Shown here: positions 3,231-57,610 of the stretch, piece after piece | Layout of the letters: the number at the start of each line of letters is the position of its first letter | Numbering within the stretch: position 1 is the stretch's first letter | NCBI GenBank assembly: GCA_947564735.1 | Contig: CANOEC010000011.1 | Span: forward strand, 39,471 to 103,470 | Length of the DNA: 64,000 nt | DNA from: an uncultured Lachnospiraceae bacterium | GTDB taxonomy: Bacteria; Bacillota; Clostridia; Lachnospirales; Lachnospiraceae | Reading direction: 5' to 3' | Program-made: the position numbers and the translations under genes | Notes under the pieces: generated by a model | Seen by the model: only the letters and a program-made list of their open reading frames with translations | What the model was told of the DNA's origin: nothing | The model's database searches: none

Positions 3231-3798
3231 GAAACCATTTATAATCATCGGAATTATTTTCCTAAGCATATGCTTTACCGGATGCGGCAAGAAACCTGTT
3301 GACAATACTGAAGCCTATGGGAACATTATAGCCGGTCTAGGGGATGCGGAAGCGTATGCTTTTCTGGTCATGGATACGGATAATCATGTTTTGGTGACGT
3401 CCGATTCGGTCTATGATACCGGAACAGAAAAGCAGGCTTCCATTTCCTGTAATGTGTATTATTTTTTCTCTGGTAAGACAGAAAATCTAGGCAGCATCGC
3501 GGGCGGGGGAACCGCATATCCCCTTACCTTTTCAGAAAGCGCAATCTATACAGCTTCCAATCACAGTGTAGAAAGATATACTGTTTCCGATAAAGACGGA
3601 TTGCTGCACTTAGAATGCGGTATTTATGAAAACTTTGACGAAACAGGGAATGCTTCCTATACAAGCATAAAAGGTGAGGAAGAAACCGTGTCAACCGAGG
3701 CAGAATATGTGAGTCTTATAAATGAATATGCCGAAAGTCAGATGATTCACTTTTCCTATGGCGCAAGCGGTTGTATGAATGAAATAATGAAAAAATAA
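3220..3798 (+). CDS. Predicted lipoprotein of unknown function
   Basis: A 192-residue protein with a short basic N-terminus, a hydrophobic segment and a lipobox ending in FTGC, so it should be lipidated and anchored outside the membrane. I recognise no domain in the mature part. The ATG lies 9 bases after GGAGGG, inside the end of the XRE gene. The overlap suggests the membrane-bound regulator and this lipoprotein work together, perhaps as a sensor pair or a regulator and its target (inference). Confidence 0.7.
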   Translation: MNSKKPFIIIGIIFLSICFTGCGKKPVDNTEAYGNIIAGLGDAEAYAFLVMDTDNHVLVTSDSVYDTGTEKQASISCNVYYFFSGKTENLGSIAGGGTAYPLTFSESAIYTASNHSVERYTVSDKDGLLHLECGIYENFDETGNASYTSIKGEEETVSTEAEYVSLINEYAESQMIHFSYGASGCMNEIMKK

Positions 3799-13091: not shown

Positions 13092-14432
13092 TCATAAATA
13101 CCGTGACAATTTTTCCGCAATGATACCGACATTCTTATAGGTAATCCGTCTGCATACCCAGTCCGTAAATTTACCATATTTGCGACAGAAAAAATTGAAC
13201 AAGAAATACGCCGCCCGCTGGCTTTTATCCTCCGGCATTCTCTTGAAAATATTTTTAACGCTGTATATCTGTCTATAAATCCATAGATATCCGTCATACA
13301 GCTCCTTCTCTGTCATTTGCGCCGGGCGAAATACGACATGCGCCGTATTATACTTGGATAAATCATCGGAAAGGATTCTGCCTTCTTTTCTGAGCCTGTT
13401 ATACAATTCTGTACCGGGATAGGGCGTTAATATATGGGATGTAACCGTTTCAATTTTATTTTTTACAATCCATTCAAGGGTTATTCTGAATGTTTCCGGC
13501 GTATCGCCATCCAGACCAAAAACAAAGCTGGCGTTAATCATAATTCCCCTGTCATGCGCCATTTTAACGGCTTTCTCATATACCTCTATGTTGTTCTGTA
13601 TTTTGTGGACAGTATGTATCGAGTCCGCCTGTATGCTCTCAAACCCGACAAACAACCCCTGACAGCCGCTGCGCTTCATCAAATCAAGCAAATCGGCGTC
13701 GCATAAAGCATTTAAGGAAACGGCGGCATTCCATTTGATGTGCAGCGGAATCAGTCTGTTTAAAAATTCCTTAAGCCACGCCGGATTGCCGGCAAAATTA
13801 TCATCGATGAACATGATATGCTTTGACCCGACCGCTTTGATATCCTGCAGGACATCCTCGATTTCACGGTTCATATACATCCTTGCTTTGGCGCTGTTAT
13901 AACAAAAATCACATCGAAACGGGCAGCCCCTGCTTGTATGGATCACATTGCAGTATAAATATTGGTCTTTTGACAGAAAATCATATGCCGGCGGTACGAT
14001 ATCCTTCCCCGCAAAATTTTTCTGGCATCTGTAGATGCTTTTTAAGGTTCCCTCTTTGAAATCTTTGACGATGTCGAGCCACGTTCCCTCCGCCGCTCCG
14101 ATGCACAATACATCGAAGGCGTCCTTCGGGATGGTATCGTGGGCGGTCGTTATATGGATTCCTCCCGCCACGACAATAATGCCCCTGTGCCGGAATTTTT
14201 TCGCAATTCTTACCGCTCCCGGCAAGGTATCAACGGTAACGGATATCCCGACGATATCGGGATGGTCCGTGTAATCGATACGCTGTATATTTTCATTTTC
14301 CAAGGAAACGGTATGCTCCTTCCTGAGAAGACTCACAATCGTAAGCAATCCCAAGGGCGGCGCCATATGAAGTTTAAGGTCTGTGTCCATAGGTCGTTTT
14401 ATCATTTTGGGCTGTATTAATTTGATATACAT
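13092..14432 (-). CDS. B12-binding-domain radical SAM protein
   Basis: A 446-residue enzyme with an N-terminal cobalamin-binding-like Rossmann domain (about 1-140) followed by a radical SAM domain. The cluster motif is SRGCPFRCDFCYN with Cys at 170, 174 and 177; the order CxxxCxxC is intact. C-terminal residues are helical and basic. Members of this class methylate or rearrange unactivated carbons or modify lipids and antibiotics; the substrate cannot be read here. The ATG follows GGAG by 6 bases. The gene follows the BlaI/M56/561-residue protein set by 25 bases on the same strand and may belong to that operon. Confidence 0.9.
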   Translation of the reverse strand: MYIKLIQPKMIKRPMDTDLKLHMAPPLGLLTIVSLLRKEHTVSLENENIQRIDYTDHPDIVGISVTVDTLPGAVRIAKKFRHRGIIVVAGGIHITTAHDTIPKDAFDVLCIGAAEGTWLDIVKDFKEGTLKSIYRCQKNFAGKDIVPPAYDFLSKDQYLYCNVIHTSRGCPFRCDFCYNSAKARMYMNREIEDVLQDIKAVGSKHIMFIDDNFAGNPAWLKEFLNRLIPLHIKWNAAVSLNALCDADLLDLMKRSGCQGLFVGFESIQADSIHTVHKIQNNIEVYEKAVKMAHDRGIMINASFVFGLDGDTPETFRITLEWIVKNKIETVTSHILTPYPGTELYNRLRKEGRILSDDLSKYNTAHVVFRPAQMTEKELYDGYLWIYRQIYSVKNIFKRMPEDKSQRAAYFLFNFFCRKYGKFTDWVCRRITYKNVGIIAEKLSRYL

Positions 14433-14457
14433 CTCAATCTCCGTTCTCTATACCAAG

Positions 14458-16143
14458 TCAGTTTCTGTCACGTAAAAACTCACAAATCCTTTCAATATAC
14501 ATATCTTTTTCCGCTATCTGCTCTGCAACCTCCATCATCATATCCTCCGCCAGATAAAATTCCTGTTCTCCGGCTAAAAATATTTTCACGCCTGTGCGCG
14601 GAACCGTCTTGTCTGCCCCTGCCCTGTAGCAATAATATGTGACAATTATCACGTCCTGCTTTCCGTCCTCATTGATATCCCGGAAAGCAACTGCCCCAAT
14701 GTCATCAAATACCCCCATATACCCTACGATATTGTTATCCTCACGAAGATAGGGGAACTGATACAATATCTGTTCTCCTCTGACTAAGAAAAAGGATGCA
14801 TCCTCAAGGTCATGGAACTGCGGCTTGCAGGATACAAATGTAACCTCTCCCCAATCTTCCAGCGAAACAGCAAAGCTTTGCTCCGCTATCTTATACGCGT
14901 TCACCTTTTCTATTGACCGATAGCCTGCTTCTTCCGGATAATAATCCGCCGAGTACCCCGCTTCCTCCTCCAGAAAGCTCTGATATCCCATATACAAATA
15001 ACGTACCGGTGCAATTGCTTCATCCTCCGGGCAGAATACGGAGATGCTGTAGCCCGCAAAATAATCATCCTTTGCCGAAGGCAGTCTGCTTTCTCCCTTA
15101 TGGTTCAGATAGCAGATTCCTTCCGACCCATGCCATTCGCGCGTTCCATAATACAAAATGCCAAAGCTTTCCTGTCCGTCCCATTTTCCTACCGTTTCCC
15201 TTAAGGGCATTGCGGAAACTGCCTCCACAAGCGGTCCTAAATCCTTCTCAACGTCAAAATCCGCCCCTGCCGCCCCGCCAAGATAAATCGTGATTTCTTC
15301 TGAACGGGCAGCATGATATGTGATTAAATAACTGTCTGTAAATTGACCGTCTTCATCGAATCCGTACAGCATCGTATCAAATGTCTGGATTGTCCCGTCC
15401 GGCGCAAAATGCAGGTTAAAGCTCGTTGCCAGACATAACGTTTCCGGCAGTTTCACTTTGGTCCTGATATCCTTCAAAATACCGTCTATCCCCGACTCAT
15501 AAATATTGTCATGCACCAGTACAGCGCTTCTCTTATCCCGAAGCTCATCCAGATACCATGACAGCTTCCCGTTGTAGGGCACTGCGCTTCTTACAACAAG
15601 TGCGCTTCCATACAAGGTGACAATCATCAGAAAAACGCCTGCCAACAGCCTATACTTCCTTTTTCCCAAAGCATTGACCGCCGATAATTTCAAGTCCAGA
15701 AAATCCCTCTCATCCCCGGCAAGTCCCTGTAGATTTACGACAAGCACAGACCTATTTTTCAAAAAAAGCAGGCAGACATCTTTTTTTCTGACATACCATC
15801 TCACATCTTCCGCCTTCACCCCGGAAATGGCATCCCAAGATTCACTCACTTCCCTTCTTTTGCCATAACAAATCCATAGAAAAAGTCCATAACCAACAGC
15901 GCCTATCCACCACGCCAAACAGAGGATTACTATCGGTATATTCTTATGCAGCCTGCCAAACTGGCACAAAGAATACAAATGAAACCATGTAATCCCGTAA
16001 ACAATCAGATTTAACGGTCTTGTCCCCACATACCATGCCGTTCTCCAAAAAAGCGGCGTCTTACTATTTTCGTATGACAAGCCCTTTGTATTCCCATGTC
16101 CTTCCTTCATCGACTGACTCATATTTTGCCTTGGTTCCGCCAT
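14458..16143 (-). CDS. Membrane protein of unknown function with C-terminal FG-GAP-like segment
   Basis: A 561-residue protein with transmembrane helices near 40-60, 70-95 and 165-190, then a ~370-residue extracytoplasmic part. A C-terminal stretch DINEDGKQDVIIV is like the calcium-binding FG-GAP/VCBS repeats, but only one copy is seen. GGAGG lies 12 bases before the ATG, and the gene starts 80 bases inside the end of the M56 gene upstream, so the two are translationally linked. It is probably an accessory or effector of that receptor (inference). Confidence 0.7.
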   Translation of the reverse strand: MAEPRQNMSQSMKEGHGNTKGLSYENSKTPLFWRTAWYVGTRPLNLIVYGITWFHLYSLCQFGRLHKNIPIVILCLAWWIGAVGYGLFLWICYGKRREVSESWDAISGVKAEDVRWYVRKKDVCLLFLKNRSVLVVNLQGLAGDERDFLDLKLSAVNALGKRKYRLLAGVFLMIVTLYGSALVVRSAVPYNGKLSWYLDELRDKRSAVLVHDNIYESGIDGILKDIRTKVKLPETLCLATSFNLHFAPDGTIQTFDTMLYGFDEDGQFTDSYLITYHAARSEEITIYLGGAAGADFDVEKDLGPLVEAVSAMPLRETVGKWDGQESFGILYYGTREWHGSEGICYLNHKGESRLPSAKDDYFAGYSISVFCPEDEAIAPVRYLYMGYQSFLEEEAGYSADYYPEEAGYRSIEKVNAYKIAEQSFAVSLEDWGEVTFVSCKPQFHDLEDASFFLVRGEQILYQFPYLREDNNIVGYMGVFDDIGAVAFRDINEDGKQDVIIVTYYCYRAGADKTVPRTGVKIFLAGEQEFYLAEDMMMEVAEQIAEKDMYIERICEFLRDRN

Positions 16144-18427
16144 ATTCAGAGTATTCCTCCATTCCTATATACAGACACAAAATACCATCCCTCATCTGGG
16201 GCGCATAAGCCTGCGTATAATACTGCGGCACATCCGTAAGCATCTGCAGTTCCCATGTTTTCCCGCCATCCTGCGTCCGCCAGATATCCGGTTCTTCCGA
16301 ACCCTGCATGGTCATAAATCCTATCCTGTTATTCAAAAACACAGCGTCCGTCGTCAGTAAATGACCTTCCCTGAGCATATCCGGCACCACCCCCGAATAC
16401 TGCCATGACCTTCCTCCATCCTCTGTACAGAACAAAAATGTCATTTCATCCCGGACAACACGTTCCCCTGTAATAATCAAAAATCCCTCCTGCCCGTTTT
16501 CCGGAAAATCAATAAATAGTTTCCTGCCCCCGAAAAACTTGGTTGTCACCACGGATTTCTGAAAGCTCCGGCTCTCCTCGTCATAAAAAACAACGGAAAA
16601 CGGCACCTTGCTGTCCCCGCCGTATGCAAATATAATCTTCTTCTCATCCACCTGATAGCTGCCGGGCTGCAGGGAGGTCAGTTCCCCCTCCATCTCATCC
16701 CCTCTTTCAAAAAGCTCTTCCAAGGTAACCGGCACTTCCCTCCACACACCGTCCCCTCCGCTTACCTGCAAAACGTCTCCGCTGGTATCTATCTGATATG
16801 CATTTTCGTTCATGCCTGCCAAAACGGGGCGATTATCTATGGAATAAACCAAATCAACTTTTGGCATATCGGAAAAATCCGCCTGCGCGTATCTCTCCGT
16901 ATAAGCCTGCAGCACATCTTCCGTCTTGGCGATTCCTTCAACCTCAAACACATAGTCCTGCACCATACGAATCCGCAGCGTCCAGTCAAAATATGCATAA
17001 TAGCCGCTCTTTTCATGGGCAATCTGCGCCCTGTCTTTTAACTCCTGCGGAAACTTGGCAAGCTCACTTTCCTCGTATCCGATAGCATACTTACAGATGA
17101 CCGCAAAGACCGCTTCCTCCCTATCTCCCGCAAGCAATCTGCTATATACCGGCTCAGCTACGGTATACCACGAATCTTCCCCACTCTGCCATGCCGCCTT
17201 ACTCTGATCCTCAAAATACAAAACATACCGCTGTAACAGCATGGGAACGGCATCGCCATAATGATCCGCATCCTGCAGCCTGACCTGCCACGGACCCTCG
17301 GCTTCATAGGGAAGTTCCGCATACTCTTTCCATTCGTAAACATCTTCTCTGTTCCGCTCAAGAAAGTATGCGTCCTCAGAAACAGGCTCCAGCTTTATCA
17401 TCTCGTCGATTGCCGTCTGTGTGAAACTTTCCGGCAGACTATATCCTTCATAAATAGACGTTTCCGCCATTTCGGCTTCTCTTCCTGCCAGATAACTCTC
17501 ATAGAATCCGCCGCCAATGCGATATAGACTAAGCGCCGCCTCCAGCAATAAAATCCCGATTGCACAGTATGCCGTCACATCCCATCTTTTATCCTCCCTC
17601 ATAATTGCAGAGATTCTTGCCTTCATCATCTGCTTCCCATGGTAAAAAAACGAGCACAGCTCGTTTGCGAGATTCGCTTCGCGAACTCGTGAATAAACGC
17701 AGGAATTTCCCATTATATTAAAATAGGTTGAATACGCCTGCCCTTTCACCTTCCCCATCTTGATACATTCTAACAGCGCATGCGCATACTCTTCTCTGTC
17801 AGACAGGTCTTTCCCTGCCACTACCGCTTCATCGCAGGCAACCTCCACATCCCGGTAACTGACTGCCTTTATCAGATACATAAGCGGCTGAAACCACAAA
17901 AGCGACTGCATGAACAACATAAACAATTTATAGAGCATATCCCTATGCCGCATATGGGTACATTCATGCAAAAAAATAAAATGCAGCACCTGCGCACGAT
18001 ATTCCCTATCCGGTACTATCAAAATAGGTTTGCGAAAACCAATCAGAAACGGTTCTCTTGCTTCCTTACTCCGATAGAGAAAAGACCGTTCGCTCCTCCC
18101 TCCATGCAGCCCCGTCTCCATCACAGCCGCCGCCAGACTCTCCCGGACTTCCGTTTCCGACACCATACTTAACCGGTTGATACAACGTCTGCGAAACCGT
18201 ACATAACTCCAATCATGCAGCGCCATGATAAGGACTGCCAATAGAAGCCAGATAACTACCGCCAGCCTTTTCCAATGAAGATAGCACAGATAGGGCAGAC
18301 CCAGACGATCCACAATCCGGTTCACAAAATAGTCCAGTCTGACACTTTTTTCCAACAAAAGTACATGCCACAGTAAAAGCTGCAACGCCAAAACCGCCCA
18401 TATCGCTTTTCTCCATTTTGCCCGCAT
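16064..18427 (-). CDS. M56 (BlaR1-type) peptidase sensor with C-terminal Asp-box domain
   Basis: A ~787-residue receptor. N-terminal helices and the M56 zinc motif HECTH near 154-158, followed by VEVACDEAVV near 194, define the peptidase. A transmembrane helix near 290-310 leads to a long extracellular part whose last ~150 residues hold three Asp-box motifs (TEDGGRSW, TQDGGKTW, SVDEGRTW), as in sialidase-like beta-propellers. The start at 18427 follows GGAGG by 10 bases; an in-frame ATG at 18448 is an alternative. Inside the peptidase domain about 20 residues are encoded by a dispersed palindromic repeat (17641-17712). A BlaI-type repressor gene lies upstream. Confidence 0.85.
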   Translation of the reverse strand: MRAKWRKAIWAVLALQLLLWHVLLLEKSVRLDYFVNRIVDRLGLPYLCYLHWKRLAVVIWLLLAVLIMALHDWSYVRFRRRCINRLSMVSETEVRESLAAAVMETGLHGGRSERSFLYRSKEAREPFLIGFRKPILIVPDREYRAQVLHFIFLHECTHMRHRDMLYKLFMLFMQSLLWFQPLMYLIKAVSYRDVEVACDEAVVAGKDLSDREEYAHALLECIKMGKVKGQAYSTYFNIMGNSCVYSRVREANLANELCSFFYHGKQMMKARISAIMREDKRWDVTAYCAIGILLLEAALSLYRIGGGFYESYLAGREAEMAETSIYEGYSLPESFTQTAIDEMIKLEPVSEDAYFLERNREDVYEWKEYAELPYEAEGPWQVRLQDADHYGDAVPMLLQRYVLYFEDQSKAAWQSGEDSWYTVAEPVYSRLLAGDREEAVFAVICKYAIGYEESELAKFPQELKDRAQIAHEKSGYYAYFDWTLRIRMVQDYVFEVEGIAKTEDVLQAYTERYAQADFSDMPKVDLVYSIDNRPVLAGMNENAYQIDTSGDVLQVSGGDGVWREVPVTLEELFERGDEMEGELTSLQPGSYQVDEKKIIFAYGGDSKVPFSVVFYDEESRSFQKSVVTTKFFGGRKLFIDFPENGQEGFLIITGERVVRDEMTFLFCTEDGGRSWQYSGVVPDMLREGHLLTTDAVFLNNRIGFMTMQGSEEPDIWRTQDGGKTWELQMLTDVPQYYTQAYAPQMRDGILCLYIGMEEYSEYGGTKAKYESVDEGRTWEYKGLVIRK
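17641..17712 (+). repeat. Palindromic double-hairpin element, in frame inside the M56 gene
   Basis: The segment contains CGAGC-aca-GCTCG, then a second hairpin with arms CGAG.TTCGC and GCGAA.CTCG, then a tail ending in GGAATTTCC. About 56 bases are identical to the copy after the reverse rubrerythrin gene at 33228-33300. On the minus strand it is read through without a stop and supplies residues between NSC and FFYHG of the M56 protein. Confidence 0.85.
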
Positions 18428-18480
18428 AATCCGCCATCCTCCATACATCTGCTCCGCAGATACCCGTCTGCAGCTTTCTT

Positions 18481-18870
18481 TTATCTGTGCTCCTGCCCAG
18501 TCTGCGTATCCGGACGCATCTTTTGAATAAACGTCTCCAGTTCCTCTATCTCTTCAGAGGAGAGCCCTTCGCCGTCATACAATGCCGACACAAAATTTTT
18601 TAAAGAATTTCGATACATCTTCCGCAAAATATTTCTGCTTTCTTTTTGCAGATATTCCTCTTCTTTTACAAGCGGAGTATACCAATTGACTTTCCCGATT
18701 TTCTCCACACTGACAAACCCTTTTGTCTCCAGACGGTTCAGAAAGGATAAAATTGTGGGCGCAGCTACATTCTTTTTGAGACGCTCTTCAATCTCCATCC
18801 TGTTGACTGGTCTGTCATAGCCCCATATAACCATCATAATTTCCAGTTCCGATTCCGGCAGTCTTTTCAT
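18481..18870 (-). CDS. BlaI/MecI-family repressor (second copy)
   Basis: A 129-residue winged-helix repressor (LPESELEIMMVIWGYDRPVN at the N-terminus, VAAPTILSFLNRLETKGF around the recognition helix, charged dimerisation tail). It is the first gene of the set BlaI, M56-Asp-box receptor and 561-residue membrane protein, all on the minus strand. A strong promoter with two direct operator-like repeats lies upstream, suggesting autorepression lifted when the receptor peptidase is activated, as in the BlaR1/BlaI paradigm. Confidence 0.92.
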   Translation of the reverse strand: MKRLPESELEIMMVIWGYDRPVNRMEIEERLKKNVAAPTILSFLNRLETKGFVSVEKIGKVNWYTPLVKEEEYLQKESRNILRKMYRNSLKNFVSALYDGEGLSSEEIEELETFIQKMRPDTQTGQEHR

Positions 18871-18904
18871 AATAACCTCTCTATTCCAGAGTGCTTATGC
18901 GATA

Positions 18905-18936
18905 GGCGACGCAAATTTCAAATTTGCCTCTGCCAT
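18905..18936. repeat. Hairpin in the leader of the second BlaI gene
   Basis: GCAAATTT-c-AAATTTGC forms an 8-base perfect stem flanked by GGCGAC and CTC, between the promoter and the start codon. On the minus strand the stem is followed by TTGCGTCGCC, similar to the TTGCGACGC that follows the hairpin at 2414-2438, so the two may be related. Confidence 0.45.
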
Positions 18937-18952
18937 CACTACTCTTATTTTT

Positions 18953-19007
18953 TACATTTGCCTAAATTCATTATATATATTCTACAATTGCCTAAAAAGT
19001 GTGTCAA
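18953..19007 (-). promoter_or_regulatory. Promoter with two operator-like direct repeats
   Basis: TTGACA (19002-19007) and TAGAAT (18979-18984) are 17 bases apart. The 14-base motif TTTAGGCAAWTGTA occurs twice in direct orientation on the minus strand, at 18983-18996 (between -35 and -10) and at 18953-18966 (just after the start point), 30 bases apart. These are the best candidates for binding sites of the adjacent BlaI-type repressor. Confidence 0.7.
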
Positions 19008-19052
19008 GATGAAGATTACAAAAGGTTCTCTGCCCATCCGAATCCTGTCAAA

Positions 19053-19113
19053 TAAAAAGAGGGACGGCAGGATAATTCCTCATTTATCACCGCTGTCCCA
19101 ACTCTCTTTTTAT
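19053..19113 (-). terminator. Terminator of the ackA transcript
   Basis: On the minus strand AAAAAGAG..GGGAC..GCGG pairs with the downstream C.GC.GTCCC.CTTTTT, an interrupted stem ending in a T-run. It follows the small membrane protein gene downstream of ackA by about 10 bases. Confidence 0.7.
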
Positions 19114-19121
19114 ATTCTTTA

Positions 19122-19571
19122 TTACTTTATCTCATCCTTATACTTCTCATACAGCTCCATCATCTTATCCATATCCTCATCGGATATGCTGTTTTGCAGA
19201 TATTGTTCCACCTGCGAGATGGATTCGCTGTTGACGCCGTCGCCCACAATATCCATGACGTCTGACAAGGTATCTTTGTCGGCATATTTCTCAATAATCT
19301 CCGTCGCTTCCTTCTTATCCGATTCATCCATATTGTTGACAATCTCTTTCGCCTTTTCCGCCGCCTGCGGATTCCCTGTGCTCTCCAAAGCCTTCTGGAT
19401 TGCCTGCTCCATGACCTGTTCCGTCACTTTCTCAGCAACTGCGGACTTAATCCCATCCGTCAGATTCCCCCGAAACATCCCGATCAGAATCACCACACAG
19501 ACGATAATAACAAGGCTTAGGAATATTATCATTCCCATGCCCTTCTTCTTTTTCTTTCTGCGCCTACTCAT
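19122..19571 (-). CDS. Small membrane-anchored protein of unknown function
   Basis: A 149-residue protein with a very basic N-terminus (MSRRRKKKKKG), one transmembrane helix (about residues 12-32) and a charged, helical, Ala/Glu/Asp/Lys-rich extracytoplasmic part. By the positive-inside rule only the first residues are cytoplasmic. The gene begins 14 bases after ackA and ends at a terminator, so it is the last gene of the ackA operon. I recognise no family. Confidence 0.7.
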   Translation of the reverse strand: MSRRRKKKKKGMGMIIFLSLVIIVCVVILIGMFRGNLTDGIKSAVAEKVTEQVMEQAIQKALESTGNPQAAEKAKEIVNNMDESDKKEATEIIEKYADKDTLSDVMDIVGDGVNSESISQVEQYLQNSISDEDMDKMMELYEKYKDEIK

Positions 19572-19585
19572 AATGTCTCTTCCTT

Positions 19586-20785
19586 CTACGCTCTCACCAG
19601 ACGCACGGTCTCCCTCGCGATGGCAAGTTCTTCGTTGGTAGGAATCACCATCGTGGTAACTTTCGCGCCTTCATCGGAAAGAATGACCTCCTCACCGCGA
19701 AGCTTATTCTTCTCCGGGTCGATATTGGTTCCAAGATAGCCAAGATATTCTCCAATCAATTCCCTTGCCTCGGCATTATTCTCCCCGACGCCTGCCGTAA
19801 ATACAATCACATCTACGCCGTTCATCGCTGCCGTATAGGCGCCGATATATTTTGCCACGCGGTAGGCATATGTTTCCAATGCCGTCTTCGCCGCTTCATT
19901 TCCCTGTGCCTTCGCTTCCGCCAAATCGCGGAAATCACTGGATACACCGCCGGATAAGCCGAGCACTCCCGATTTTTTATTACATACATCAATCACTTCT
20001 GCCGCGCTGATGCCTTCCTTCTCGGCAATAAACGTAATAATTGCCGGATCCAGATCGCCGGAGCGCGTTCCCATGATTAACCCTTCTAAGGGCGTCAGTC
20101 CCATAGACGTATCGACGGACTCCCCATATTTTACCGCAGACACCGATGCACCATTGCCAAGATGACATACGATAATCTTCAAATCCTTAATATCTTTTCC
20201 AAGAATCTGCGCGGCACGTTTGGATACGAAATCATGGCTTGTGCCGTGGAACCCGTAACGGCGCACTTTGTAATCCTCATAGTAAGAAAGCGGAAGTCCA
20301 TATAAATATGCCTTCTTCGGCATGGTCTGATGAAACGCCGTATCAAACACACCCACCATCGGCACATCCGGCATAATCTCTTTGCAGGAATTAATTCCAA
20401 TCAGGTTTGCCGGATTGTGAAGCGGTGCAAGGTCGTTACACTGCTCAATCACCTCAAGCACTTCCTCGTCCAATACAACAGAACTTGCAAATTTCTCACC
20501 GCCGTGCACAATACGATGTCCGACCGCATCAATCTCCTCAAGCGACTGAATCACCCCTACCTGCGGGTCAGTAAGCTTCTCAATCACCAGCTTCACAGCC
20601 GCCGTGTGATTCGGCATATCCGCCTCTGTTTTCACTTTGTCACCGCCCGCAGGCTGATGAACAATGGCGCTGCCATCGATTCCAATCCTCTCGCACAAAC
20701 CTTTTGCCAATACATCTTCCGACTCGCTGTCAATCAACTGATATTTCAGCGAAGAAGAACCACAATTAATAACCAGAACATTCAT
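19586..20785 (-). CDS. ackA: Acetate kinase
   Basis: Acetate kinase converts acetyl phosphate and ADP to acetate and ATP, the substrate-level phosphorylation step of fermentation. The ~399-residue product has the family signatures near the N-terminus ([14 protein letters not shown]) and in the middle ([10 protein letters not shown]), and the ATP-binding glycine segments [19 protein letters not shown] and GGVSSDFR. The ATG at 20785 lies about 10 bases after GAGGG; an ATG 9 bases upstream is too close to it. No phosphotransacetylase gene is adjacent. The next gene downstream encodes a small membrane protein. Confidence 0.97.
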
Positions 20786-20914
20786 TGTTATCATTCCCTC
20801 TTTTCTTTTCTAAGATATACGGCTTACGAATAACCGCTTTCTATTTTTATCATAGCACTATTATACGACGTATACATGCAAAATTGAAACCTTTTCTCCA
20901 CAGACAGCCAGAAA

Positions 20915-22345
20915 TTAGTAGGCTCTTCCCCAGTAAACCATCTTCTTAGCAGGTTTCCCACAGCATACGCATGTGTCTCCAATCTGCTCCTGCTCAAAAG
21001 GCATACAACGGCTTGTCACAGCAAGCTCTTCCTTAATCTTATCCTCACAATCCTGTTCGCCGCACCACATCGCTTTGACAAAGCCGGACTTCTCCGTAAA
21101 CAATTTGCGGAATTCATCCATGTTCTTTGCTTCATAGGTATGGGCATCTCTATGGGCTCTCGCACGCTCTAACATCTCCGTCTGCATTCTATCAAGAATC
21201 TCTCCTGCTTTTACTTCCAGTTCATCCAGAGAAACCTCGATCTTTTCTCCCGTATCGCGGCGACAGATAACACACTTATTCGCCTCGATGTCCTTTGGTC
21301 CGATTTCCACACGGATTGGGATGCCCCGCATCTCCTGCTCTGAAAATTTCCAACCGGGACTCTTATCCGCATCATCCACTTTCACGCGGAAGTTACCAAG
21401 CTTATCTCTTAATTCGTACGCCTTATCCAGCACGCCTTCTTTTTTCTGCTGGATAGGGATAATCATAATCTGTGTAGGCGCAATTCTGGGAGGCAGCACA
21501 AGTCCGGAATTGTCTCCGTGTACCATAATCACCGCGCCAATCAGACGGGTCGTCGTACCCCATGAAGTCTGGTGCACATATTTGAGCGTATTGTCTTTGT
21601 CTGTAAACTGGATACCGAATGCCTTGGCAAAACCGTCGCCGAAATTATGGCTCGTACCGGACTGCAATGCCTTACCGTCATGCATCAATGCCTCAATCGT
21701 GTAGGTTGCCGTTGCGCCTGCAAATTTTTCTTTGTCCGTCTTACGACCCTTGATGACAGGAATCGCCAGCACCGTCTCGCAAAACTCCGCGTAGACATTC
21801 AACATCTGGATTGTCCTCGCCTCCGCTTCCTCTGCAGTCGCGTGCGCGGTATGTCCCTCCTGCCATAAAAACTCGCGGCTCCGCAGGAAAGGTCTTGTTT
21901 CCTTCTCCCAGCGGACGACAGAACACCACTGATTGCACACCTGAGGCAAATCACGGTAAGACTGTACCACGTTTTTATAGTAATCACAGAATAGCGTCTC
22001 CGACGTAGGTCTGACGCACAGTCTCTCCTGCAAAGGCTGCATACCCCCATGTGTCACCCAAGCTACCTCCGGCGCAAATCCTTCCACATGATCCTTCTCT
22101 TTATTCAGAAGACTCTCAGGAATAAACATAGGCAGATATACGTTCTGTACTCCTGTCGCCTTAAACATCGCATCCATCTGCTGTTGAATCAGCTCCCATA
22201 TGGCATATCCCGCCGGCTTAAATACCATGCATCCTTTAATGCTTGTGTAATCCAGCAGTTCCGCTTTCTTCACCACATCGGTGTACCACTGCGCGAAATC
22301 ATCTTCCATGGACGTAATTGCTTCTACTAATTTCTTGTCAGCCAT
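20915..22345 (-). CDS. proS: Prolyl-tRNA synthetase (archaeal/eukaryal type)
   Basis: A class II aminoacyl-tRNA synthetase charging tRNA-Pro. At 476 residues it is the shorter archaeal/eukaryal form without the editing insertion typical of most bacterial ProRS; the C-terminal zinc-binding-like domain (CGEQDC, then [11 protein letters not shown]) and the terminal Tyr (WGRAY) are hallmarks. Class II motifs include [20 protein letters not shown]. The ATG at 22345 follows GGAGGAG. Expression is controlled by a T-box leader upstream. This type of ProRS is found in many Clostridia. Confidence 0.97.
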
Positions 22346-31976: not shown

Positions 31977-32049
31977 AAAAAAAACGAGCAAAGCTCGTTT
32001 GCGAGATTCGCTTCGCGAACTCGGCATTCGTGGCTATCCAAGGAATTTT
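31977..32049 (+). repeat. Palindromic double-hairpin element upstream of perR
   Basis: CGAGC-aaa-GCTCG, then a hairpin with arms CGAG.TTCGC/GCGAA.CTCG as in the other copies. The tail diverges but ends in AGGAATTT like them. It follows an A-rich run (TTTATAAAAAAAA) and sits just upstream of the perR promoter. Confidence 0.8.
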
Positions 32050-32690: not shown

Positions 32691-33230
32691 ATGAAATTTG
32701 TATGTCAGGTATGCGGCTATGTCCATGAAGGAGATTCCGCACCGGAAAAATGTCCGGTATGTAACGCACCGGCTGAGAAATTCACTGCACAGGCAGGCGA
32801 GAGAGAATGGGCTGCGGAGCATGTTGTAGGTGTTGCTAAAGGCGTTAGCGAAGACATTATGGCTGACCTTAGAGCAAACTTCAACGGCGAGTGTACAGAA
32901 GTAGGTATGTATCTTGCTATGGCAAGAGTCGCTCACAGAGAGGGCTATCCGGAAATTGGTTTATATTGGGAGAAAGCGGCTTGGGAAGAGGCTGAACATG
33001 CTGCAAAATTTGCTGAGTTATTAGGTGAAGTTGTTACCGATTCCACCAAGAAGAATCTGGAAATGAGAATAGATGCAGAAAACGGCGCTACAGCAGGTAA
33101 ATTTGATCTTGCAAAGCGTGCAAAAGCTGCCAACCTTGATGCAATCCATGACACCGTTCACGAGATGGCACGTGACGAGGCTAGACACGGCAAGGCATTT
33201 GAAGGTCTGTTAAAGAGATACTTTGGTTAA
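32691..33230 (+). CDS. Reverse rubrerythrin (NADH peroxidase type)
   Basis: A 179-residue peroxide-reducing protein. The domain order is reversed relative to classical rubrerythrin: an N-terminal rubredoxin-like domain with Cys at 5, 8, 21 and 24, then a four-helix ferritin-like diiron domain from about residue 45, whose EXXH-type ligand motifs are seen in [10 protein letters not shown] and [10 protein letters not shown]. Reverse rubrerythrins in clostridia accept electrons from NADH via rubredoxin and its reductase to reduce H2O2 and O2. A rubredoxin gene lies downstream and perR upstream. A palindromic repeat begins on the stop codon. Confidence 0.93.
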
Positions 33231-33300
33231 AAAAACGAGCACAGCTCGTTTGCGAGATTCGCTTCGCGAACTCGTGAATAAACGGATGAATTTCCTATAC
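33228..33300 (+). repeat. Palindromic double-hairpin element after reverse rubrerythrin
   Basis: The stop codon TAA runs straight into AAAAACGAGC and the two hairpins of the family, with the tail GTGAATAAACG..GAATTTCCTATA. About 56 bases match the in-gene copy at 17641 without a mismatch. Two further small hairpins (GAGAATGC/GCATTCTC at 33333-33351 among them) follow. Confidence 0.85.
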
Positions 33301-45381: not shown

Positions 45382-45449
45382 ATATATAAACAAAGAAACA
45401 GATAACAGAGCTGAATCGGATTTTTCGATTTGGTCATACTGATATCAAA

Positions 45450-45638
45450 GCGAGCAAGCTCGCTTACGAGATTTGCTTCGCAAACTCGGTGTACAACGGC
45501 ACACTACACAGAAATGAGCAAGCTCGCTTACGAGATTTGCTTCGCAAACTCGGTGTACAACGGCACACTACACAGAAATGAGCAAGCTCGCTTACGAGAT
45601 TTGCTTCGCAAACTCGGTGTACAACGGCACACTACACA
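45450..45638 (+). repeat. Three tandem 64-bp palindromic units in the hsp20 leader
   Basis: Units begin with GAGCAAGCTCGCTTACGAG at 45452, 45516 and 45580, an exact period of 64 bases. Each has GCGAGC/GCTCGC hairpins, then a hairpin with arms CGAG.TTTGC and GCAAA.CTCG, and the tail GTGTACAACGGCACACTACACA. The copies are essentially identical including the tails, so this is a recent tandem amplification and not a CRISPR array. Confidence 0.9.
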
Positions 45639-55781: not shown

Positions 55782-55857
55782 TGTTATAGAAATTCCTGCA
55801 TTTGCACACGAGTTTGCGAAGCAAATCTCGCAATTGAGCGAAGCTCAATTTTTTACC
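55782..55857 (-). repeat. Palindromic double-hairpin element after the VWA gene
   Basis: In gene orientation the stop codon TAA leads straight into AAAATTGAGC-ttc-GCTCAA, a hairpin with arms CGAG.TTTGC and GCAAA.CTCG, and the tail TGCAGGAATTTCTATA. Stem bases differ from the other copies, but their pairing is preserved. Confidence 0.85.
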
Positions 55858-57610
55858 GCATTTCCCGCACAAGTTCTAGGAACTCTTCCTTGTACTCATC
55901 CGACAAATCTATCGACTTCAATGCCTTTTCCACATGCTTTACCGACGCGTCTTCCGGATATTCACTGTGGGATGCCAGCAGCCCAAACTCCGCTACTGCC
56001 GCCGCAAAAACATAATCATCCGTCGGCGCATTGGTATAGCTCTCATATCCGACAGGATATTCCAACAAGCTGCTTTCCTCCTCAGCAGGCTTCTTATAAC
56101 GGATGCTGATAGTCAACCACTCTTCACCATTTGCCGAGTAAAGAGGTAATCCGCACATCTCCTCCTTATACTCTCTGCTGTACTTCAAATCCTCCACATC
56201 CTCTTTAGACAAATCACTTACGGGCTGTTTCAAAACAATCTCATACAGTGCCGTTACGCTGTGTCCTGCACCGATTTCCCCAGCGTCCTTCGTATCGTCG
56301 TCAAAATCCTCTTTCGCGAGCGCTCTGTTTTCATAGCCGAGAAGGCGATAGCTTTCTACCACTGCCGGATTGAACTCAACCTGAAACTTCACGTCCTTAC
56401 AGATTGTCAAGAGTGTGGCGGACATTTCCTCGACCAGCACCTTATTCGCTTCGCGCAGGCAGTCAATATATGCGTAGTTACCGTTTCCTTTGTCCGCAAG
56501 TGTCTCCATCTTATTGTCTTTGATGTTTCCTGTACCGAATCCCAATACCGATAAGAAGATTCCGGACTCCTTTTTCTCCGTAATCAGTTCTTCTAATTCT
56601 TCTTCGCTTGTCAGCCCGATATTTAAATCGCCATCCGTCGCAAGGATAATACGGTTATTGCCGCCTTCTATGTAATTCTCCTCAGCTAACGCATACGCCG
56701 TCTCAATCCCTTTGCTTCCATAAGTGCCGCCTCCGGCTTCCAGTGAATCTAACGCCTTGATAATCTTCTTCGTCTCATTGCCGCGTGCACCTTCTAATAC
56801 AATCTGGTCCTCCCCTGCGTAAGTTACAATGGAGACCCTGTCTTTTTTTGTCAGATTCTTGGTCAATAAGCCAAAAGACTCCTGCAGCAGCGGTAACTTG
56901 TCATCGGAATACATGGAACCCGACACATCCAGCAAAAATACAAGATTAGAAGCCGGTGCGTGAGAATAATCAATATCTTGGGTCTTTAACCCAATCATCA
57001 GAAGCTCCGCGTCGTCATTCCACGGGCAGGAACTAATCTGCGTCGTAACGCCAAAAGGCTCTTTGCCCTCCGGGTCATTATAATCATAAGAAAAATAATT
57101 AAGCATCTCCTCGATTCTGACTGCTCCCTGCGGTATTTCATCCAGAGTATATCCGCTGTTAATCAGTCTGCGCAGATTGCTGTAAGAAGCCGTGTCCACA
57201 TCCGCCGCAAAGGTAGAAAGCGGTGCTTTCATAACGGAAGTAAATCCTTGCTCTTCCCATTCGCTGTACTCTTCATTGTTATCATAATTTCCCGGTTCCC
57301 ACTCGTCATAACATGACTCGAGATAACTGTTCTCTCCCACTATCTTATTTTCGACCGCAGAATCATAGTTTCCTTCTTCTGCAGGCGCCACATCACATTC
57401 CGCATAACTATCTTCCGCCGCAGGAGCTTCTGCCACAGAATCATAGCTGCCGCCGTCCTCCTCCGCTGCCGCCTCATCTTCCGTGACAGCCATACCCCCG
57501 CTGTCAGACGGTGCACTGTCGGATTTACCCTGTCCGCCACAGCCCGTCATCAACATAACACCCGCTAAAATAAGCGCTGCCGCTCTTGTTCCGTAATTTT
57601 TCTTTTTCAT
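55853..57610 (-). CDS. VWA-domain lipoprotein (YfbK-like)
   Basis: A 585-residue lipoprotein: signal peptide with lipobox LMTGCGG, a Ser/Asp/Glu/Ala-rich linker (about 25-100), a YfbK-type N-terminal domain (about 100-215; TFAADVDTASYSNLRRLIN, PQGAVRIEEMLNYF), then a von Willebrand factor A domain with an intact MIDAS motif (LLDVSGSM, with TDGDLN later) and a C-terminal DUF3520-like domain. VWA domains bind protein partners through a metal ion. GGAGGG precedes the ATG. It lies downstream of an ECF sigma/DUF4179 pair on the same strand and may be part of its regulon. Confidence 0.9.
   Translation of the reverse strand: MKKKNYGTRAAALILAGVMLMTGCGGQGKSDSAPSDSGGMAVTEDEAAAEEDGGSYDSVAEAPAAEDSYAECDVAPAEEGNYDSAVENKIVGENSYLESCYDEWEPGNYDNNEEYSEWEEQGFTSVMKAPLSTFAADVDTASYSNLRRLINSGYTLDEIPQGAVRIEEMLNYFSYDYNDPEGKEPFGVTTQISSCPWNDDAELLMIGLKTQDIDYSHAPASNLVFLLDVSGSMYSDDKLPLLQESFGLLTKNLTKKDRVSIVTYAGEDQIVLEGARGNETKKIIKALDSLEAGGGTYGSKGIETAYALAEENYIEGGNNRIILATDGDLNIGLTSEEELEELITEKKESGIFLSVLGFGTGNIKDNKMETLADKGNGNYAYIDCLREANKVLVEEMSATLLTICKDVKFQVEFNPAVVESYRLLGYENRALAKEDFDDDTKDAGEIGAGHSVTALYEIVLKQPVSDLSKEDVEDLKYSREYKEEMCGLPLYSANGEEWLTISIRYKKPAEEESSLLEYPVGYESYTNAPTDDYVFAAAVAEFGLLASHSEYPEDASVKHVEKALKSIDLSDEYKEEFLELVREMR

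Follow-up and report, generated by a model that had tools for sequence, protein, structure and literature searches.

A dispersed palindromic repeat inserted in frame in an M56 (BlaR1-type) receptor-protease gene of an uncultured Lachnospiraceae bacterium

The receptor gene and its in-frame insert

The window, i.e., the whole stretch of 64,000 nucleotides that was analysed, carries on its minus strand a gene for an M56 receptor protease, which is adjoined by a BlaI-type repressor gene and contains one copy of a palindromic repeat within its coding sequence. The features at this locus are:

16064..18448, minus strand: M56 (BlaR1-type) receptor-protease gene, 794 codons from the first ATG (PF05569, E 1.1e-32)
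18481..18870, minus strand: BlaI-type repressor gene, adjoining the receptor gene (PF03965, E 2.1e-25)
17645..17719, minus strand: in-frame palindromic insert, 75 bp = 25 codons, without counterpart in 8/8 spanning homologous loci (alignments A1 and A2)
17643..17723, unstranded: whole repeat including TAAAA at both ends (ends compared over 18 anchored copies)
17648..17666, unstranded: hairpin 1, AAACGAGC-ACA-GCTCGTTT (plus-strand RNA folding; same stem on the minus strand)
17667..17690, unstranded: hairpin 2, GCGAG-A-TTCGC-TTC-GCGAACTCGT, with a bulged A (plus-strand RNA folding; nearly the same stem on the minus strand)

The receptor scored 113.8 bits against PF05569 (curated Pfam cut-off 31), its HEXXH (as HECTH) and CDE motifs were intact in alignment A1, and a BlaI-type gene was found beside it as well as in all ten homologous records tested (L182–L191); by its profile score, HEXXH motif and neighbour it is an M56 (BlaR1-type) receptor. 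It is not a BlaR1 beta-lactam receptor by its sensor domain, as neither a beta-lactam sensor nor a penicillin-binding domain was detected at the C terminus and Pfam returned only M56 and a sub-threshold BNR (Asp-box) match in the C-terminal part (22.5 bits, cut-off 27). The relative L048 gave weak PDB matches outside its M56 part (Ycf48-like, cellobiohydrolase, and sialidase; E 0.018–0.36). Ten receptor homologues of approximately 50–75% identity were retrieved, and the start of most aligned relatives corresponds to Met8 of the window ORF. The region 14458–16143 after the receptor encodes a 561-residue protein without Pfam match, with a homologue in the same place in 9/10 records tested.

The insert is a complete single unit of the dispersed repeat and is free of stop codons within the 794-codon ORF. 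Its placement is ambiguous by up to 4 bases (A runs) and, because a Phe codon is repeated, it comprises residues 244–268 or 243–267. A preliminary description of this DNA had correctly recognised a dispersed double-hairpin repeat that is read through without a stop inside the M56 coding sequence, but had placed it at 17641–17712 with about 20 added residues, whereas 17645–17719 (75 bp) and 25 residues were measured here. The M56 copy has 68 bases identical to the nearest other copy (L003, contig C94) and 57 to the one at 33228, which lies behind a rubrerythrin gene; the latter match had already been described, with a count of 56 that has to be corrected by one. Because of these identities the insertion looks recent, as had been proposed. 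A generic repeat finder (17500–17900, minimum length 12) reported neither a repeat nor an inverted pair, because the hairpin arms are shorter than 12. No known RNA family was found at the insert site, with one sub-threshold ylbH match elsewhere in 14000–21000.

Eight homologous loci from seven genomes of the same genus (G011 twice) span the site, and none of them carries the insert. Exactly the 75 bp are absent in seven, and the eighth (L052, G043) lacks the 75 bp and one further T; L054 (G042) matches other parts of the receptor gene only and lies outside this count. The seven exact empty loci read TAY TTT TAY CAY GG uninterrupted, with TAAAAATA on the other strand in six and TAAAAGTA in L053. 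The segment is likewise absent from all ten further homologous records (L182–L191), some of which evidently derive from the same genomes as the spanning loci: the empty-site pattern was matched in eight, alignment A2 shows an identical gap for L186, and in L190 the segment is missing together with one T. Alignment A1 contains a single identical 25-residue gap in all five relatives aligned; among the 11 homologous loci, L192 (29% over part of the gene) was left out. The homologue alignment suggested in the preliminary description thus gave a precise gap with a length divisible by three and empty sites in sister genomes; neither of the contrary outcomes named there, homologues with the same residues encoded by unrelated DNA or a receptor family with no member lacking the segment, was observed. 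In L052 (near 2197–2226) one T is missing from the T run at the insert site and the frame breaks there, and L190 has one T fewer in the same run (near 3703); the A/T tract at this site may be a slippage spot besides an insertion target.

The repeat family, its target and its distribution

In the own genome (4.52 Mb, 102 contigs), at least 53 BLAST matches to the repeat were obtained at E ≤ 10, at least 43 of them below 1e-10 (best 40 of 63 candidates scored). The places read comprised 44 entries, which correspond to 41 by coordinates, as L012 and L029 overlap and have three entries in common; L040 and L041 also share the flank. Weak matches at C2:91009, C7:52034, and C51:7629 lay outside the places read. 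The window contains the following further copies:

33228..33298, plus strand: repeat copy, its first bases forming the TAA stop of the rubrerythrin gene (32691–33230, Pfam)
31978..32023, plus strand: shorter repeat copy, overlapped only by a frame opening 3 codons before the copy
55789..55857, minus strand: repeat copy at the 3′ end of a 585-codon ORF (55853–57610, minus strand)

A full copy reads, on the plus strand of the window, about T-AAAAAAA-CGAGCnnnGCTCG-TTTGCGAGATTCGCTTCGCGAACTCG-TGmATAAACGTAGGAATTTCCTAT-nnnn-TAAAA. Two hairpins fold on either strand, with a folding energy of −22.2 kcal/mol on the plus strand (0/200 shuffles as low) and −21.3 kcal/mol on the minus, i.e., coding, strand (10/200 shuffles as low). 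The ends were compared over the 18 copies anchored at both ends among 27 nearly complete ones, and the nine unanchored copies were dropped (two being the same copy). A T precedes the left A run in 15 of the 18; the right A run has an A in 13–15 copies at each of five positions, with a preceding T in 10. Outside TAAAA, sequence conservation drops in these 18 copies, and the spacer is variable in length. Applying a stricter pattern yielded 11 units, with lengths of 74 bp (eight), 75 bp (two), and 73 bp (one); one minus-strand frame was open in all 11, another minus-strand frame in eight, and one plus-strand frame in ten. With its 75 bp the M56 unit keeps the reading frame, which the commonest unit length of 74 bp would break.

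Several copies showed further peculiarities. At window positions 33228 and 55853 as well as in L004, L010, L021, and L030, an ORF ends within about one codon of the first base of the copy and the TAA of the repeat is the stop. Three head-to-tail copies of a related hairpin unit, approximately 64 bp apart, occupy 45447–45616. A 17-bp hairpin piece is locally expanded in a slippage-like manner inside the repeat copies of L041 (1501–1640) and L043 (1501–1602), and a tandem array was called in L043. A subtype with AGAAAAAATCGAGC at one end (L025, L026, L034, L036, and L044) is often located beside other small hairpin modules with a AATTTCCTA-like tail, and these AGAAAAAATCGAGC/AATTTCCTA modules apparently constitute a mosaic repeat family.

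The repeat prefers A tracts at its ends. After joining the flanks, i.e., without the insert, the receptor gene holds two TAAAAA sites on either strand and seven TAAAA sites, and the receptor genes of five relatives hold four to eight TAAAAA sites. The conserved codons for Tyr-Phe-Tyr make TTTTTA, the reverse of the TAAAAA found at the repeat ends. Given these TAAAAA counts, landing at this site was not unlikely; selection as the cause of the landing place was weighed and dropped, as chance and target preference suffice, and the place is probably not meaningful by itself. The empty and filled M56 sites are compatible with a duplication of 4 bases, AAAA, but the A runs would mask any target duplication, which is not separable from the sequence of the element because both ends are A runs.

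A second coding insertion was found in a histidine kinase gene of the own genome (contig C23, L036:620–1813), where a longer repeat variant lies in the HATPase domain (PF02518). It appears as a 90-bp gap in the DNA alignment to G013 and as a gap of 28 residues in the protein search, its exact edges being uncertain because the flanks differ. The kinase of G013 is continuous (empty site) and 78% and 77% identical on the two sides; more distant homologues vary here in length by a few residues. The kinase copy has the same orientation to the gene as the M56 copy and another reading frame, and the site is again TTTTA; its closest copy is L034 (89% over 103 bases). Copies inside a gene were found at 2/41 places, i.e., the receptor and the kinase. 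Among the 44 place entries, 21 ORFs extend 20 codons or more beyond a copy in both directions, including these two genes, and 10 of the other 19 were scanned with Pfam: L015 and L016 matched, L027 was sub-threshold, and seven gave no match. The Pfam families of L015 and L016 are located entirely downstream of the repeat, consistent with a 5′ leader. In none of 13 loci with longer frames from other genomes, read by eye, does the repeat lie within a gene that can be recognised. In L148, L149, and L150, and also in L020 of the own genome, the repeat stands in frame just before the likely start of a gene.

Matches at E ≤ 0.001 were obtained in 20/38 genomes of the same genus (own included), some of which rest on 22-base matches only (G018 and G033), and in 0/24 other genomes of the order, scoring the best up to 14 candidates per genome in both sets. 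A survey of 250 family genomes, in which all but one of the other genomes belong to other genera, yielded two matching genomes at E ≤ 1e-8, namely the own and one of another genus with a 46-base match (best up to three candidates scored). The repeat hence appears nearly confined to the genus of the window. It had no match in plasmids and phages, and viral contigs contained no exact match to its core pattern. Y1 transposase matches were present in 25/61 genomes, with no Y1_Tnp at E ≤ 0.001 in six of the eight genomes that have at least eight repeat hits and only pieces in the own genome. RAYT or IS200 as the mover was discarded as unsupported, since the Y1 transposase does not track the repeat, and this comparison of genomes brought up no mobilising enzyme. 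An IS200-like Y1 transposase match at C1:125109–125464 (L076, L077) of the own genome is split over two frames and apparently broken.

The autocleavage loop and the possible consequences of the insertion

The autocleavage bond of BlaR1 of Staphylococcus aureus is Ser283/Phe284 according to the available text of PMC9834060. A profile of the receptor family aligned to the BlaR1 chains 8exp and 8exs at E 9.4e-11 and 1e-9, respectively, placing the Phe before Tyr-His-Gly-Lys on Phe284 of BlaR1 (columns counted by hand; the sequence of 8exs has Ala at position 284), and the single-sequence alignment of L048 was off by one residue, with the same Phe on Ser283. Since the insert fits equally well on either side of a Phe, it would fall, by alignment, on the equivalent of Ser283|Phe284 within one residue either way. 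The two sides of the motif in the window are:

17720..17731, minus strand: N-terminal side of the autocleavage motif, codons Ser240-Thr-Tyr-Phe243 (alignment to 8exp/8exs and 18 other M56 rows)
17633..17644, minus strand: C-terminal side of the motif, codons Tyr269-His-Gly-Lys272, behind the insert (alignments to BlaR1, M56 rows, and A2)

The motif S-T-x-F-x-G-x-x-x-M-K-x-R is common, more or less closely, to the 18 other M56 rows (L182, L187, and 16 of the 18 distant loci L055–L072, two having been missed by the filter), none of which has an insertion at the motif. Behind the insert, Phe-Tyr-His-Gly-Lys is kept, and Cys-Ser-Phe replaces the Ser-Thr-Tyr or Ser-Ala-Tyr of close relatives. AlphaFold models (9 sequences each) reached a mean pLDDT of 49.9 for the window receptor and 41.7 for the empty homologue L182, and in both models most of the protease part, with the insert site, stayed below 50; L190 and L191 were not among the sequences aligned for modelling. 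These models are too poor for placing the insert.

Substitutions in the receptor gene were counted by lineage. Single-base codon changes unique to the window lineage were 26 synonymous to 13 not in the protease part and 35:12 in the rest of the gene, compared with 41:12 and 51:26, respectively, for three sisters pooled. Unique residue changes in the window receptor versus L182, using four outgroups, were 28/16, 17/9, 16/10, and 19/9 in the protease part and 39/34, 32/25, 33/21, and 35/19 in the rest of the gene. These counts fit a functional receptor gene in a somewhat faster lineage, and selection on the window receptor may have been relaxed recently.

We consider it probable, at roughly 0.8, that a nearly genus-confined mobile palindromic repeat was inserted into an A tract of the receptor gene and tolerated. 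A complete copy, presumably of an actively mobile element, would have moved into a TAAAAA tract of the gene and would have survived because it is 75 bp long, open in frame, and situated in a putatively exposed loop that precedes the last membrane helix of the protease part and likely corresponds to the autocleavage loop of BlaR1. Production and folding of the receptor probably continue, and its self-cleavage would be altered or slowed. For both coding cases, insertions of a selfish repeat that were tolerated, being 3n long, stop-free, and in loops, are the best reading.

A less favourable outcome, which we regard as possible though unlikely, is that the insertion inactivated the receptor, the open frame being a lucky leftover of a gene starting to decay. 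This would agree with the conserved protease motif hit by the insert, the larger number of residue changes unique to the window lineage, and the frame of the same gene in G043 (L052), broken by one missing T at this site; it is opposed by the full-length ORF, the intact catalytic motifs, the mostly synonymous changes, and the intact BlaI partner gene, points of little weight because the insertion looks recent and decay has had little time to show. More doubtful is an action of the repeat in the mRNA, where the hairpin followed by seven U on the sense strand would act from within the coding sequence to attenuate receptor transcription. Both coding insertions share the required orientation, which may, however, reflect the frames that are open; the insert is missing from the output of the terminator scan, because its stem takes part of the U run, and translating ribosomes usually suppress mRNA hairpins of this kind.

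Equally speculative is the idea that the repeat rewired the receptor protease by lengthening its self-inhibiting loop by 25 residues and doubling its cleavage motif, with Ser-Thr-Tyr|Phe in front and Cys-Ser-Phe|Phe-Tyr-His-Gly at the back; the Ser-Phe pair of the back motif, like that of BlaR1, would then come from the repeat, and the release of the loop, hence signalling, would be set by the sequence of a mobile element. An assembly artefact with repeat reads misplaced inside the gene is very improbable: the assembly consists of 102 contigs, with some repeat copies at or near contig ends, but the M56 copy is in the middle of a 103-kb contig with the frame exactly kept, and the same kind of event is seen in a second gene. 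The view of the segment as an extension of the receptor that is old and conserved can practically be dismissed: nothing was found in its favour, and the empty sites refute it; the segment is absent from the 8/8 spanning loci, 10/10 records, and 18/18 other M56 rows, and 68 bases of its DNA are identical to another copy in the own genome. The tolerated insertion of a mobile repeat is retained as the preferred reading; compared with the preliminary description, the equivalence to the BlaR1 autocleavage bond, the A-tract target, and the second gene with an in-frame copy have been added.

Comparison with known systems

The receptor shares with BlaR1 (8exp and 8exs; available text of PMC9834060) the M56 protease domain, HEXXH, the autocleavage-loop motif, and the BlaI-type partner, and differs from it in the C-terminal part (weak Asp-box match) and the 25-residue insert at the putative scissile-bond equivalent.

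Regarding the repeat, the kind of element is known from Rickettsia palindromic elements (RPEs), REPs, and bacterial MITEs. GTAG/CGTC-type REP elements are small palindromes located mostly between genes and sometimes providing stop codons or lying within ORFs, the latter in several species (PMC3733652, in its available part, where a term search gave no word beginning with Firmicutes or Clostrid). Unlike REPs with RAYT, the repeat is not tracked by a Y1 transposase across the genomes compared. By eye, GTAG was seen in many copies ahead of a weak palindrome, GGAATTTCC, and not where the two main hairpins have their foot. MITEs such as ERIC, NEMIS, and RUP are described as small and non-autonomous, several with TA termini and some with in-frame gene fusions (PMC2229807 and PMC10969869, available parts); unlike these, the repeat showed by eye no terminal inverted repeats, its ends being direct TAAAA.

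RPEs, as far as covered by the available text of PMC2229807, are likewise dispersed palindromes, inserted in frame and translated inside protein genes, and an RPE-bearing guanylate kinase was active with a changed substrate affinity. They measure 105–146 bp and carry terminal inverted repeats; in R. conorii, nearly half of them are located in genes (PMC10969869, available part). In-frame, stop-free insertion with empty homologues is found here in two genes, as in RPEs; the length of 105–146 bp, the long stem, and the terminal inverted repeats are not found, the repeat having 73–75 bp as measured (90 bp in the kinase), two separate hairpins, direct TAAAA ends, and a Lachnospiraceae host. The likeness to RPEs drawn in the preliminary description consequently holds for what the element does and not for family membership, from which length, layout, and host set it apart. 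The titles and abstracts listed by searches of open-access literature, with subscription journals mostly outside this scope, contained no report of the repeat or of a Lachnospiraceae case, and the repeat family, the host, and the insertion site appear to be new. In-frame insertion of palindromes has repeatedly been proposed as a way in which selfish DNA gives rise to new protein segments and is best known from Rickettsia; the present case from a gut Lachnospiraceae genus adds clean empty sites, two signalling genes, and two reading frames, and, as the function of the insert site is known in detail from BlaR1, the effect of a recent selfish insertion on a self-cleavage loop is directly testable.
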